From Candidatus Coprousia avicola (GTDB lineage Bacteria > Actinomycetota > Coriobacteriia > Coriobacteriales > Coriobacteriaceae): a stretch of 64,000 bases of DNA. Location of the stretch: the NCBI GenBank assembly GCA_018715125.1, contig DVMF01000036.1, positions 1 to 64,000 of the forward strand, written 5' to 3'. Each line of letters begins with the position of its first letter. Position 1 is the stretch's first letter. Shown piece after piece: positions 44,550-57,046 of the stretch. Made by a program: the position numbers and the translations under genes. A model generated the notes under the pieces. The model saw only the letters and a program-made list of their open reading frames with translations, did no database searches and was not told the origin of the DNA.

Positions 44550-45686
44550 ATGTCATCTCATGCTCCCGAAACCGCGAGCCTTCTCGCGGCGCTCGATACC
44601 CAGCCCCGCGTGCGGGCGTTTCTGACGCGCGCCGTCGAGAGCGACCGCACGAGCCATGCCTACCTCTTTTTGGGCGCGCCCGGCTCCGGCAAGCTCGATG
44701 CGGCCTGGGCGCTGGCGCAGGCTATCATCTGCGAGAGCCACGGCTGCGGCACCTGCGAGGCCTGCGTGCGCGTGGCCAGGCGCACGCATCCGGACGTGCA
44801 CTATCTCGCACCGGAGAGCGTAACGGGCTACCTCATCGGCCAGACGCGCGACCTCATCGAGGACGTGGCTTTGGCCCCTATCCGGGCGCACGCGAAGGTC
44901 TACATCATCGACCGGGCGGAGCAGCTGCGGGCCGATTCCGCAAACGCGCTGCTGAAAACCCTCGAGGAGCCGCCTCGCGGGGTGACCTTCATCCTGTTGG
45001 GAACCTCATCCGAAACCATTCTCCCCACCATTGTCTCGCGTTGCCAGTGCGTGCCGTTTCGCTTGGTGTCGCCTGCCGATGCGGCCGCTGCCGTCGCCCG
45101 CGCCACGGGGGCGGCGCCCGAGCGCTGCCAGATGGCCGTCGCGGTGGCGGGGAGCCCCCAGCGCGCCGTCGCGTTTCTCAAGAGCGCCGAGCGCCAGGAG
45201 GCGCGCCGCGTCATGGTGCGCGCGCTCGACGCCCTGCCCCATGCTGACGACCTCGATATCCTGAATGCCGCCAAGGAGCTCATCGTGGCGGTGAAGGCGC
45301 CGCTTGCCGAGGTGAAGTCGACGCAGGAGGCCGTGCTCAGCCAAAACGCCGATTATCTTTCGCGTGGAGCCTTGAAGCAGCTTGAGGACCGCCAGAAGCG
45401 CGAGCTCAACGCGCGGGAGCGTTCGGGTATCATGGAAGTGCTGGCGAGCGCACGTTCGCTTCTGCGCGACGTGCTGGTCGTGCGCGAGGGCATCGTCGAC
45501 GGCATCACCAATACCGACGTCGCCGAAGTCTCGAGCCGTCTCGCGGCGAAGACCGATACACCAGGAGCGGTGGGCGCCCTCGATGCCGTCGCGCGCGCCG
45601 AACGCGCCATCGCCCGCAACAGTACCCCTCAGCTGACCCTGGAGGTCATGCTCTTTGCTATCAGGAAGGCGCTTCTATGCCGCTAG
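44550..45686 (+). CDS. holB: DNA polymerase III delta' subunit
   Basis: SHAYLFLGAPGSGKLDAAWALAQA, CGTCEACVRVARRTHPDV, ANALLKTLEEPPRGVTFIL; tmk-holB-ricT order. Confidence 0.9.
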   Translation: MSSHAPETASLLAALDTQPRVRAFLTRAVESDRTSHAYLFLGAPGSGKLDAAWALAQAIICESHGCGTCEACVRVARRTHPDVHYLAPESVTGYLIGQTRDLIEDVALAPIRAHAKVYIIDRAEQLRADSANALLKTLEEPPRGVTFILLGTSSETILPTIVSRCQCVPFRLVSPADAAAAVARATGAAPERCQMAVAVAGSPQRAVAFLKSAERQEARRVMVRALDALPHADDLDILNAAKELIVAVKAPLAEVKSTQEAVLSQNADYLSRGALKQLEDRQKRELNARERSGIMEVLASARSLLRDVLVVREGIVDGITNTDVAEVSSRLAAKTDTPGAVGALDAVARAERAIARNSTPQLTLEVMLFAIRKALLCR

Positions 45687-47278
45687 TTGTTCCCGTTAAG
45701 TTTCCCTTTGCCGCGCGCGAGCTGTGGTTCGACCCGCAGGGGCTCGATATCGTGGAGGGCGATTACGCCGTTTGCTCCACGGAGCGCGGAACCGAGTTGG
45801 GGTTGGTGACCGAAGACCCGTATGAGGTGGAGGAGGCCGATCTCGCCGCGCCGCTGAAGCCGGTGCTGCGTATCGCCACGGATGCCGACCTCGACCGCGC
45901 CGATGAGCTCGCCGACCGCGGGGATGCCGCGATGACGGAGTTCAGGCGCCTCGTCAAGCAGAACGGGCTCGACATGAAGCCCGTGGGCGTCGAGTTTCTC
46001 TTTGGGGGCGAGAAGGCCGTCTTCTACTTCGCCGCCGAGGACCGCGTGGACTTCCGCCAGCTGGTGAAGGATTTGGCGTCGAGTCTCCACGTGCGCGTGG
46101 ATATGCGTCAGATCGGGGTGCGCGACGAGACGCGCCTCGCCGGCGGGTACGCCCAGTGCGGGCAGGAGCTCTGCTGCACGCGTTTTGGCGGGCAGTTCGA
46201 GCCCGTGTCCATCCGTATGGCCAAAGAGCAGGACCTGCCGCTCAACTCCTCTAAGATCTCGGGCGTGTGCGGGCGCCTCATGTGCTGTCTGCGCTACGAG
46301 TTCGAGGCGTACAAGGACTTCAAGAGCCGCGCGCCCAAAAAGAAGACGCTGATCGACACACCGCTCGGTAAGGCGAAGATCCAGGAGTACGACACCCCGC
46401 GCGAGCAGCTGGTGCTGCGTTTGGAGAGCGGGAAGGTCTTCCGGGTGAGCCTGTCAGACATGACATGCTCCGATGCCTGTAAGAAGCGTGCGGAGGAGCA
46501 GCATTGCGCCTGCCGCCCCGATTGCGTGACGCGCGACGTGCTCGAGAAGATCGAGTCGGCCGACATCTCGCTCGCCCTGCTGGAGCTCGACCGTCAGAAC
46601 GGCGTCGATGTGGGGGGCGGCCTCTCTCAGGCGGACCGCATCGTGACCTCCGGCCCCACGCGCACGAAGCGCCGCGGTCAGGACGGTTCGGGCGAGACGG
46701 GTACACCGGGGCGCAAGCGCACGCGCGGCAAGGCGGGACAGGCCGCCGGGGCCGAGGAGCGCGCGACAGGGGAGGGCGGCGAGCGCCGCCGTCGCCGCAA
46801 GCGCTCGGCAGCACCCGAGGCGGACCGCGCGACGGAGACCGCGCCCGAGAGCCGCTCCGAGAGCGGCAAGGGCACCACGGCGCGCCGTCGCCGCCGGCAC
46901 CTTTCAGCCGAGGAGCGCGACGAGGCGTTCCGCAGTGCCGCCGCGCGCGACGCCGCCCCCGCGTCCGCGGAGGCGCCGACCCCCCAGCGGTCGCGCCGTC
47001 GCCGCCACACCGCCGCGTCTGGTGCTGCGGCGGGCGAGGGACGTTCGCGCTCTGTCAAGCCGTCGATGCCCTCGGTCGCCGATCAGGTGGCAGATGGCGA
47101 GGTCAAGGTTACGCGTCGTCGTCCGGGGGACGGCGGCGGCGCGCGCTCGCAGGCTCCGCGCGACGATGCGGGCGCGCCCGATGAGGCGGCACCCAAGCGC
47201 CGGCGCCGCCGCCGTTCGCGCAAGCCTCGGGGCGAGGGAGGAGACGCCTCCGCACCCACGCCCCCTTCTGCTGAGTAG
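45677..47278 (+). CDS. ricT: PSP1 domain protein (RicT/YaaT-like) with long basic low-complexity C-terminus
   Basis: FGGEKAVFYFAAEDRVDFRQLVKDLASSLHVRVDMRQIGVRDETRLAGGYAQCGQELCCTRF, SGVCGRLMCCLRYE. Confidence 0.88.
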   Translation: MPLVVPVKFPFAARELWFDPQGLDIVEGDYAVCSTERGTELGLVTEDPYEVEEADLAAPLKPVLRIATDADLDRADELADRGDAAMTEFRRLVKQNGLDMKPVGVEFLFGGEKAVFYFAAEDRVDFRQLVKDLASSLHVRVDMRQIGVRDETRLAGGYAQCGQELCCTRFGGQFEPVSIRMAKEQDLPLNSSKISGVCGRLMCCLRYEFEAYKDFKSRAPKKKTLIDTPLGKAKIQEYDTPREQLVLRLESGKVFRVSLSDMTCSDACKKRAEEQHCACRPDCVTRDVLEKIESADISLALLELDRQNGVDVGGGLSQADRIVTSGPTRTKRRGQDGSGETGTPGRKRTRGKAGQAAGAEERATGEGGERRRRRKRSAAPEADRATETAPESRSESGKGTTARRRRRHLSAEERDEAFRSAAARDAAPASAEAPTPQRSRRRRHTAASGAAAGEGRSRSVKPSMPSVADQVADGEVKVTRRRPGDGGGARSQAPRDDAGAPDEAAPKRRRRRRSRKPRGEGGDASAPTPPSAE

Positions 47279-47351: not shown

Positions 47352-48134
47352 ATGGATGCACGGGGGTGGATTGGGGCGCGGGCCGGTGCCGTGCGCGAGC
47401 GCCTGCAGGCAGCGCTGCTCGAGGCGCTCTCGCCCACCCGATGCGCCGGCTGCGAGCGAAGGGGCGTGCTCATCTGCGACGCGTGCCTCGCGCGCCTTGC
47501 CCTGATCGACCCGAAAACGTCGTGTCTTGCCTGCGGGGCGCCGTTCGGGTCGCTCATCTGCACCGAGTGCGCCGGCGCGCCGCGCGCCGGGGAGGTGCCG
47601 CCACGGGTGCGCGACGGGCCCGACCGCGTGCTCGCCATGGCGGTTTTCGCCGACCCGCTGCCGCGCATCATCCGCGCCTACAAGGATGGGGGCGAGAAGC
47701 GTCTCGCCCCGCTGATCGCGCAGATGCTCGTCGATTGCGCCGAGCACGCCGAGGAGGTGGCGCCCGAGCGATACGGGGGTATCCTCACCGCCGCGGATGC
47801 GGTGACATTCGTGCCCGTGACAGCGCGCGCCTGGCGGCGGCGCGGCTTCGACCATATGGAGGATATCGCGCGCGCCTTCGCGGCGGAGACGGGTCTTCCG
47901 GTCGTTGACGCGCTCGTCAAACGCGGTAGCGCCGACCAACGCGCCCTCGGCCGCACGGGGAGGCAGGCGAGCGCCCGGGGTGCCTACGAGGTGGTTGCCG
48001 ACGTGGGCGGCGAGCGCCTGCTCCTTCTAGACGACGTCATCACCACCGGGGCGACCATCGCCGCCGCTGCGAGCTCGCTTGCCGCATCCGGCGCGGCGCG
48101 CGTGGACGCCTTGGCTGCCGCGCGCGTATGGTAG
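47352..48134 (+). CDS. comF: ComF family phosphoribosyltransferase-like protein
   Basis: CAGCERRGVLICDACLARL, CLACGAPFGSLICTECAG, VPVTARAWRRRGFDHMEDIARAF, LLLDDVITTGATI. Confidence 0.88.
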   Translation: MDARGWIGARAGAVRERLQAALLEALSPTRCAGCERRGVLICDACLARLALIDPKTSCLACGAPFGSLICTECAGAPRAGEVPPRVRDGPDRVLAMAVFADPLPRIIRAYKDGGEKRLAPLIAQMLVDCAEHAEEVAPERYGGILTAADAVTFVPVTARAWRRRGFDHMEDIARAFAAETGLPVVDALVKRGSADQRALGRTGRQASARGAYEVVADVGGERLLLLDDVITTGATIAAAASSLAASGAARVDALAAARVW

Positions 48135-48157
48135 GTGCCGTGATGCCCGCGACCTGC

Positions 48158-48163
48158 TATAAT
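48158..48163 (+). promoter_or_regulatory. Extended -10 promoter element
   Basis: TGCTATAAT directly before the structured non-coding interval. Confidence 0.6.
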
Positions 48164-48169
48164 GCCCAT

Positions 48170-48440
48170 CGTCCCTCAGGCTGTGGTTGCGGGCGCCCGG
48201 CGCCCTAGTCCAAGACAGACGCGGTCGAAAGGATCCACGTAAGCGTCCGCGTGCGCGCGGCGCGATCATGGCGCGTCCTAGAGGTAAGCCGCACCGCCCG
48301 TTTCTACCTTTTGGGGCAATCCCGCCCCGCGGGCGAGCGGGCTAGTCGTGAAGGGTGCCGCGGCACCCCGAGCAAACGCCCCAGTGCGCAGGTGTGGGGT
48401 CAAAGACCAGGTCAGCTGAGGGGCTTGGGACAGCATGCCG
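48170..48440 (+). ncRNA. Structured ncRNA candidate, probable raiA RNA (boundaries approximate)
   Basis: Non-coding interval between comF and hpf/raiA loci, extended -10 promoter, 5'/3' closing pairing CCCTCAG-g-CTG (48173-48183) with CAGCTGAGGG (48413-48422), internal hairpins (e.g. GGGTGCCGCGGCACCC 48353-48368). Confidence 0.6.
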
Positions 48441-48499: not shown

Positions 48500-49453
48500 A
48501 TGGTGGGGACGACGAGAACGGTTGTGGCAAAGGCGGCGGCGCTCATCTGCGCCGGGGTGATTGCGCTCGGCGTGAGCGGCTGCTCGCTCACGGTACCGCC
48601 GCTCTCGGAGGCCGAGGCGCCCCAGACGTACGCGCAGACCATTGACGACAGCCTGCTGGTCGCGCCGGGCACGCTTACCGTCGCCGTGGACACGGCGGAC
48701 GCTCCGCAGGCCATGGCGCAAAACGGCGGTATCGAGGGCTACGACGTCGATTTCGCCCGCCTGCTCGCCGCGCGCATGGGGCTCGATCTGAATGTCGTCG
48801 AGGGGACCTCCGCCGAGTCGACGGTGGGCGAGGGGCTCGCCGATGTGTACCTCGGTGCCGAGACGAGCGACGGTTCCTCGTCCATCACCGTCTCCGGTGT
48901 CTATCTTGAGAACGCGACCGCGGTTTTCGGTCGTACCGAGAGCGCCGGCACCGGGCTCACCTCTGACGTGCTCGCCCAGGCGGTCGTGGGCGTGCAGGAG
49001 AGCTCGGCCTCGCAGGAGGTGCTCGTGCGCGCGGGCATCGCTTCTACCCAACAGACGTTCAGCAACGTGAACGCGTGCTTCGAGGCGCTGGGCCAGGGCC
49101 AGGTGGACTACGTGGTCTGCGATGCCACGGCGGGCGCCTATCTTGCCCGCGCCTATCCCGGCGTGACGTTTTTGGGAACGCTCAGCACCACGACGACCTT
49201 CGGTCTTGCCACAAGCGCGGATGCGGGCGACCTGACCGATGCGCTCACCCAGGCTCTTGACGACATTACGTCGGACGGTTCCATCGACGCGGTGCACACC
49301 GCGTGGTACGGGCATCTTCCCGTGAGCCTTGCCAATACGGCCGTCTCGGGGGTGACGGTGGCGGATACCGGCACGGATGACGATTCGTCTGCCGATGCCG
49401 CGACGACGAGCGACGCTCCGTCCGACCCCGACAGCATGAACAGCCTCGACTAG
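48500..49453 (+). CDS. Lipoprotein with bacterial extracellular solute-binding (SBP_bac_3-like) domain
   Basis: Lipobox LGVSGCS; GTLTVAVDTADAPQAMAQNGGIEGYDVDFARLLAARMGLDLNVVEG. Confidence 0.8.
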   Translation: MVGTTRTVVAKAAALICAGVIALGVSGCSLTVPPLSEAEAPQTYAQTIDDSLLVAPGTLTVAVDTADAPQAMAQNGGIEGYDVDFARLLAARMGLDLNVVEGTSAESTVGEGLADVYLGAETSDGSSSITVSGVYLENATAVFGRTESAGTGLTSDVLAQAVVGVQESSASQEVLVRAGIASTQQTFSNVNACFEALGQGQVDYVVCDATAGAYLARAYPGVTFLGTLSTTTTFGLATSADAGDLTDALTQALDDITSDGSIDAVHTAWYGHLPVSLANTAVSGVTVADTGTDDDSSADAATTSDAPSDPDSMNSLD

Positions 49454-49616: not shown

Positions 49617-50201
49617 ATGGATATCACCGTATCGGGACGCAAGACCACGGTAACCGATGCCCTGCGCGCACATGTTGATGAGAAGATCGGCGGAGCCCTC
49701 AAGGTCTTCGATATCGAGCCCATGACGGCCGATGTCGTGCTCAGGTACGAGAAGAACCCCGCCAACCCCGAGCCCGCGATTGTCGAGGTTACGGTCCGCG
49801 CCCGCGGCTCGGTGATTCGCGTCGCCGAGCACGGGGTCGATATGTATTCGGCCATCGATCTTGCGGCCGACAAGGTCACCCGCCAGCTCCGCAAGTTCAA
49901 GACCAAGGTTATCGACAACCGGCAGCAGGGGCCCTCGGCGGCCGAGGTGGCGCCGGAGGCGCGCGTTGAGGACCTCGCCGACCTGCTCATCCCCGAGGAC
50001 CAAGACGATCAGCTCGTCCGCGAGAAGGTCATCGAGATCACCCCGATGACCGAGGAGCAGGCCCTCGTCCAGACCGATCTCATCGGTCACGACTTCTACG
50101 TCTTCGAGAACGCCGCGACCGGTCTCATCAATGTGGTATATCACCGCAAAAACGGTGGATATGGCATCATCAAGCCCAAGATTGAGGAGCTTGAGGCGTA
50201 A
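49617..50201 (+). CDS. hpf: Ribosome hibernation-promoting factor, HPF/RaiA family (long form)
   Basis: MDITVSGRKTTVTDALRAHVDEKIGGALKVFD; C-term MTEEQALVQTDLIGHDFYVFENAATGLINVVYHRKNGGYGIIKP. Confidence 0.94.
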   Translation: MDITVSGRKTTVTDALRAHVDEKIGGALKVFDIEPMTADVVLRYEKNPANPEPAIVEVTVRARGSVIRVAEHGVDMYSAIDLAADKVTRQLRKFKTKVIDNRQQGPSAAEVAPEARVEDLADLLIPEDQDDQLVREKVIEITPMTEEQALVQTDLIGHDFYVFENAATGLINVVYHRKNGGYGIIKPKIEELEA

Positions 50202-56431: not shown

Positions 56432-56518
56432 TGGTGCGGGCGAAAGGACTTGAACCTTCACGGGGTTGCCCCCATATGGACCTGAACCATACGCGTCTGC
56501 CAATTCCGCCACGCCCGC
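56432..56518 (-). tRNA. tRNA-Leu (anticodon CAG), encoded CCA
   Basis: Minus strand GCGGGCGTGGCGGAATTGGCAGACGCGTATGGTTCAGGTCCATA...GGTTCAAGTCC...CGCCCGCACCA; 7-bp acceptor stem. Confidence 0.95.
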
Positions 56519-56961: not shown

Positions 56962-57046
56962 TGGTAGGGGCGGTGGGACTCGAACCCACAATCCTTGCGG
57001 CCGAAGATTTTAAGTCTCCTGCGTATGCCAATTCCGCCACGCCCCC
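56962..57046 (-). tRNA. tRNA-Leu (anticodon TAA), encoded CCA
   Basis: Minus strand GGGGGCGTGGCGGAATTGGCATACGCAGGAGACTTAAAATCTTC...GGGTTCGAGTCCC...CGCCCCTACCA. Confidence 0.94.

Follow-up and report, generated by a model that had tools for sequence, protein, structure and literature searches.

The 64,000-nt stretch of Candidatus Coprousia avicola DNA analyzed here (contig DVMF01000036.1; hereafter the window) carries a genuine raiA (ModT) RNA at 48171-48424, an identification that we regard as virtually certain. Throughout the Coriobacteriia loci sampled, this RNA is followed on the same strand by an SBP lipoprotein gene. Comparison of sequences further suggests that the Coriobacteriia form has shed a terminator still recognizable in other Actinomycetota, and that transcription most likely continues from the RNA into the lipoprotein gene.

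Identity of the RNA

A cmscan of the whole window returned three matches over threshold, namely two tRNAs and the raiA RNA. The match to the Rfam raiA model (RF03072) covers model positions 1-209 on the plus strand, full length and without truncation, and scores 144.7 bits (E = 7.7e-36) against an Rfam cut-off (gathering threshold) of 101.3 bits. The window's genome has a single copy. The initial annotation had called a raiA RNA in this place and proposed this very search, and the full-length match well above the cut-off bears out its call. The interval it gave, 48170-48440, does hold the RNA, but the 3' end falls at about 48424, a little inside that interval. It had also correctly named comF (ending at 48134) and hpf as neighbors, with a lipoprotein gene standing between the RNA and hpf, and it was right that no credible ORF begins before 48500 and that an extended -10, TGCTATAAT, occupies 48155-48163, in letters as in coordinates. 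The two tRNA genes (56435-56518 and 56965-57046, minus strand) have long variable arms and are probably tRNA-Leu genes.

Fold and covariation

We mapped the anatomy of the C. acetobutylicum cryo-EM structure (PMC11751092) onto the window through the Rfam alignment and examined it in 63 distinct, aligned Coriobacteriia homologues (Table 1). In the model structure 92.2% of cells are paired, and the covariation score is 0.275 compared with 0.156 after shuffling. Both-sided changes occur at 51 of the 77 model pairs (30.0 ± 2.2 in shuffles); these and the following covariation counts are to be read as support and not as probabilities, because related sequences were counted separately. Sliding the partners by 1-3 columns reduced pairing to about half or worse. 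Conservation and compensatory changes of the RNA are strong across Coriobacteriia, in line with the second comparison proposed along with the cmscan search.

The closing stem P1 is present with its internal bulge and conserved inner segment and has both-sided changes at 13 of 17 pairs; it is the outer pairing CCCTCAG(g)CTG 48173-48183 with CAGCTGAGGG 48413-48422 that the initial annotation had recognized. P2, found in 62 of the 63 homologues, is highly variable in length and covaries. P3a and P3b are 98-100% paired, with numbering that agrees with the C. acetobutylicum structure, and the P3 loop (48217-48223) provides one strand of pk-1. This pseudoknot, already seen by cryo-EM (PMC11751092), joins the P3 loop to the P5-P6 junction and is paired in 63/63 homologues, with both-sided changes at four of its six pairs. 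P4 (100% paired) and the two pairs of pk-2, whose bases are present, are nearly invariant and hence carry no covariation signal. The P6-P8 region is of the multi-stem variant 2.

Table 1. Features at and around the raiA RNA (window coordinates)
Feature	Position	Strand	Remarks
comF (ComFC-like phosphoribosyltransferase)	47352..48134	+	weak Pribosyltran and DZR_2 matches
Extended -10 TGCTATAAT	48155..48163	+	7 nt 5' of P1; predicted start ~48170
raiA (ModT) RNA	48171..48424	+	RF03072, model 1-209
P1 5' strand	48171..48188	+	pairs with 48405-48409 and 48413-48424; G48180 bulged
P2 optional hairpin GGGCG/CGCCC	48191..48205	+	92.6% paired; both-sided changes 4/5 pairs
P3 hairpin	48208..48234	+	P3a 48208-48211/48231-48234; P3b 48214-48216/48224-48226
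pk-1 5' strand GACGCG	48218..48223	+	pairs with 48272-48277
P4 5' strand	48235..48240	+	pairs with 48392-48397
P5 hairpin	48243..48263	+	82.9% paired; both-sided changes 8/8 pairs
pk-2 5' half UG	48269..48270	+	partner CA 48401-48402; position assigned by homology to cryo-EM structure
pk-1 3' strand CGCGUC	48272..48277	+	pairs with 48218-48223
P6	48290-48294/48384-48388	+	encloses P7 and P8 (48290..48388)
P7	48295-48300/48330-48335	+	inside P6
P8	48339-48342/48378-48381	+	tip 48353-48358/48363-48368; inside P6
P4 3' strand	48392..48397	+	pairs with 48235-48240
P1 3' strand	48405..48424	+	model match and covariation
SBP_bac_3 lipoprotein gene	48500..49453	+	75 nt 3' of RNA, no terminator between
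hpf/raiA, long ribosome hibernation factor	49617..50201	+	Ribosomal_S30AE and its C-terminal domain

Two of the four local hairpins listed initially, GGGCG/CGCCC and GGGTGCCGCGGCACCC, are retained here as P2 and the tip of P8. The other two show no covariation and compete with helices of the model. ACGCGG/CCGCGT, which competes with pk-1 because it takes the same 5' bases, can pair in 75% of cells, hardly more than in shuffles, and 159 of 500 shuffles reached its covariation score; we rejected it in favor of P3 and pk-1. CCCCA/TGGGG has zero both-sided changes and was rejected in favor of P4 and P8, the latter of which takes the same bases and does show such changes.

Minimum-free-energy folding gives only a weak signal (z = -1.6) and a fold that misses pk-1, so that energy alone does not suffice to reveal the RNA. 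This modest z-score is what one might expect if the region were no raiA RNA at all and the lipoprotein mRNA simply had a structured 5' UTR of the ordinary kind, but that reading is refuted by the covariance-model score, the invariant core motifs and the covariation of pk-1, and we give it practically no credence.

The window RNA thus has the same P1-P8, the same pk-1 and pk-2 bases and the same P6-P8 variant 2 as known raiA/ModT RNAs (PMC11706538, PMC11751092), a family for which two knock-outs and several cryo-EM structures have been published. It likewise has comF upstream and hpf downstream, an arrangement that is common but not obligatory in the family. It possesses the optional P2 and misses one model nucleotide (U11) in P1. 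It differs in having neither an outward extension of P1 nor a U-tract, in the SBP lipoprotein gene placed between RNA and hpf, and in a host without Spo0A.

Promoter

The -10-like hexamer closest to consensus ends a median of 8 nt 5' of P1 (IQR 7-9) in 59 distinct loci from Coriobacteriia, compared with 13 nt in other Actinomycetota, and 42 of the 59 have the TGn of an extended -10. The RNA is thereby assigned a SigA-type promoter with a conserved extended -10, by consensus match alone and with no -35 demanded. We rejected a second promoter as a general feature of the SBP gene: an extended -10 occurs within just 4 of 64 RNA-SBP gaps, three of them from one family, and gaps as short as 21-43 nt leave little space for one. 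At three loci of one family, with gaps of 125-128 nt (L007, L059 and L064), the gap contains a conserved extended -10, TGATAGAGT, perhaps a separate SBP promoter.

The lipoprotein gene and its neighbors

The lipoprotein gene is the next same-strand gene at 64/64 Coriobacteriia loci, beginning 21-128 nt after P1 (median 70). This link is tighter than that to comF, which precedes the RNA in the same direction by no more than 600 nt at 42/62 loci, or to hpf, found no more than 1.5 kb downstream at 46/60. All 64 RNA-linked lipoproteins align as one family with an invariant lipobox Cys, and Pfam assigns SBP_bac_3 to the window's protein and to all six divergent members run. With the lipoprotein of one relative (G046) as query, the best match in the window's genome was the window's copy (72 vs 38 bits). 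The nearest named relatives of the window's protein are from Collinsella (e.g. Collinsella sp. An268, 97% identity). At the aligned positions that we take to be ligand residues of the SBP_bac_3 family, the usual Arg is retained in 1/64 proteins and the Asp in 56/64; the RNA-linked SBP thus apparently lacks the usual ligand Arg.

The best SBP match in the three RNA-less genomes scored 75-104 bits, compared with 281 and 234 in two RNA-bearing controls, although these poor matches could come from assembly gaps. Several distant families have a second, canonical-looking SBP gene and/or permease and ATPase genes (all named from sequence alone) before or after hpf. In the window's family no permease or ATPase gene lies beside the SBP lipoprotein gene.

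According to a review that cites the original motif survey, raiA RNAs occur upstream of periplasmic-binding-protein genes (PMC11477304), the layout that we see here. Compared with the association as given in that review, the one in the sampled Coriobacteriia is invariant, same-strand and close, has no terminator, and involves a protein with the ligand Arg kept in one of 64.

Loss of the terminator in Coriobacteriia

In other Actinomycetota, P1 can be extended outward with a score of at least 5 at 22/27 loci (2.4% in shuffled sequence), and at 16/27 P1 is followed, no more than 20 nt away, by a T-rich tract (5 or more T among 8 positions). The raiA RNA of these bacteria therefore appears to carry a built-in intrinsic terminator, formed by the P1 extension and a U-tract. 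Among Coriobacteriia the extension is found at 4/59 loci and the T-rich tract at 7/64, the latter count being lowered by the higher G+C of Coriobacteriia loci (64% vs 55% in other Actinomycetota). Within loci, T enrichment is seen outside Coriobacteriia only (Wilcoxon p = 0.005, vs 0.26 in Coriobacteriia). By these comparisons, the outward extension and the U-tract are lost in the Coriobacteriia form.

A search of the 64 RNA-SBP gaps found no convincing intrinsic terminator; for this reason transcription most likely runs from the RNA into the SBP gene. Rho-dependent termination, which sequence does not readily reveal, may nonetheless occur 3' of the RNA. Inspection of the same 64 gaps revealed no conserved hairpin, and gap sequence and length vary freely. 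A gap hairpin can be formed in several genomes, but its z-scores scatter around zero and we do not claim it.

These features raise the question of whether the Coriobacteriia RNA works in cis, as a riboswitch-like or protein-binding leader controlling the SBP gene, plus hpf where co-transcribed. A cis element would also stay strictly beside a single gene in a fixed orientation. The consistent riboswitch-type position before the SBP gene at all 64 loci (its regulation being putative) is likewise expected of one, and the 21-128 nt spacing and the lost P1 extension and U-tract fit as well. Transporter genes precede hpf in more distant families, and the usual objection of variable distance and wrong orientation (PMC11477304) is void in Coriobacteriia. 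However, neither the terminator search nor the inspection for a conserved hairpin revealed a riboswitch expression platform, or any terminator/antiterminator, in the 64 freely varying gaps, and in three genomes belonging to a single family the extended -10 within the gap would make the SBP gene independent of the RNA. Moreover, the same fold is elsewhere a terminated stand-alone RNA, and trans complementation works in clostridia. Amino-acid-transporter riboswitches, too, are structured leader RNAs of transporter-type genes but differ in fold and family, and relatives of the present RNA act in trans. Taken together, we consider a cis-acting leader unlikely.

Alternatively, the adjacency might be inherited synteny, with a stand-alone trans RNA whose terminator has decayed or is Rho-dependent and an SBP gene that is a mere passenger. 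All loci share descent, so the 64/64 linkage does not represent 64 independent events, and the comF-RNA-hpf order is an old arrangement. Nevertheless, the RNA-SBP link survives where comF is inverted or has moved off and where hpf has left, and we regard this explanation as somewhat unlikely.

Distribution, Spo0A and c-di-GMP

The raiA RNA is present in 58 of 61 relatives searched (the window's genome included), with every match over the cut-off and nearly all in single copy; phylum-wide, 77 of 199 genomes have a match, 75 of them over the cut-off. One relative, G017, has two raiA RNAs, L009 (G017:C133:604-856) and L079 (G017:C41), and the copy on a 3.2-kb contig is probably foreign contamination, judging from its sequence and neighbors, which are those of another lineage.

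Spo0A, the product of the master gene for sporulation, was found in 0/61 relatives, and by this test the group is non-sporulating. GGDEF domains occur in 32/61 genomes and EAL domains in 20/61. No GGDEF match was obtained in 28 of the 58 raiA-bearing genomes, or in 20/39 among those at least 95% complete, and GGDEF is present in two of the three that lack the RNA, all three being at most 90% complete. By these counts the RNA is not positively associated with c-di-GMP synthesis here, and together with the lack of Spo0A they indicate that effects on sporulation and c-di-GMP are not the RNA's general function.

Almost universal retention of the RNA by these non-sporulating gut bacteria, about half of the raiA-bearing genomes being without GGDEF, makes the clostridial effects on sporulation and c-di-GMP look like consequences of a more basic process. 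The ModT paper expected a more basic function, from the presence of the RNA in non-spore-formers (PMC11706538). This lineage narrows the RNA's biochemical function, and its compact locus, in which the RNA is accompanied by a single lipoprotein gene and hpf, offers a simple test site for it.

Proposed mode of action

The raiA RNA is abundant and acts in trans in C. difficile and C. acetobutylicum; clostridial work has established its abundance, trans action and stationary-phase phenotypes (PMC11706538). Trans action has been demonstrated in Bacillota only. The one complementing ortholog described there as actinomycetotal comes from Acetohalobium arabaticum (PMC11706538), which NCBI taxonomy places in Bacillota, so that we find no actinomycetotal raiA RNA in the complementation work covered.

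For Coriobacteriia we think it probable that the RNA acts in trans and is processed from a longer raiA-SBP(-hpf) transcript. Transcription would start near 48170, at the foot of P1, from the conserved extended -10, and would read through into the SBP gene, perhaps as far as hpf. The compact fold would then outlast a putative 3' processing of the longer transcript and leave a stable mature RNA with a predicted 3' end. By analogy with two clostridia, the mature RNA would act in trans, likely together with a protein, when exponential growth ends. Its role would not generally run via Spo0A nor, in many hosts, via GGDEF-made c-di-GMP. It is also conceivable, if decidedly improbable, that an ancient RNA, self-terminating and standing alone, lost its terminator and became a dual-function leader that is either kept in or cut from the SBP-hpf message. 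If true, such a leader would couple the growth signal of the RNA to synthesis of a non-canonical-looking surface lipoprotein and a ribosome hibernation factor.

The family and its fold are already published, as is an association with periplasmic-binding-protein genes (PMC11477304). The class-wide SBP invariance, the terminator loss, an SBP apparently without its ligand Arg and the comparison with Spo0A and GGDEF may be new; we found no prior report of these Coriobacteriia features in the literature covered.

The second gene upstream of the RNA, at 45677-47278, encodes a RicT-like protein that combines a PSP1 domain and a long tail rich in arginine. In Bacillus, processing by RNase Y involves RicT homologues, which makes this protein a candidate partner for maturing the terminator-less RNA.
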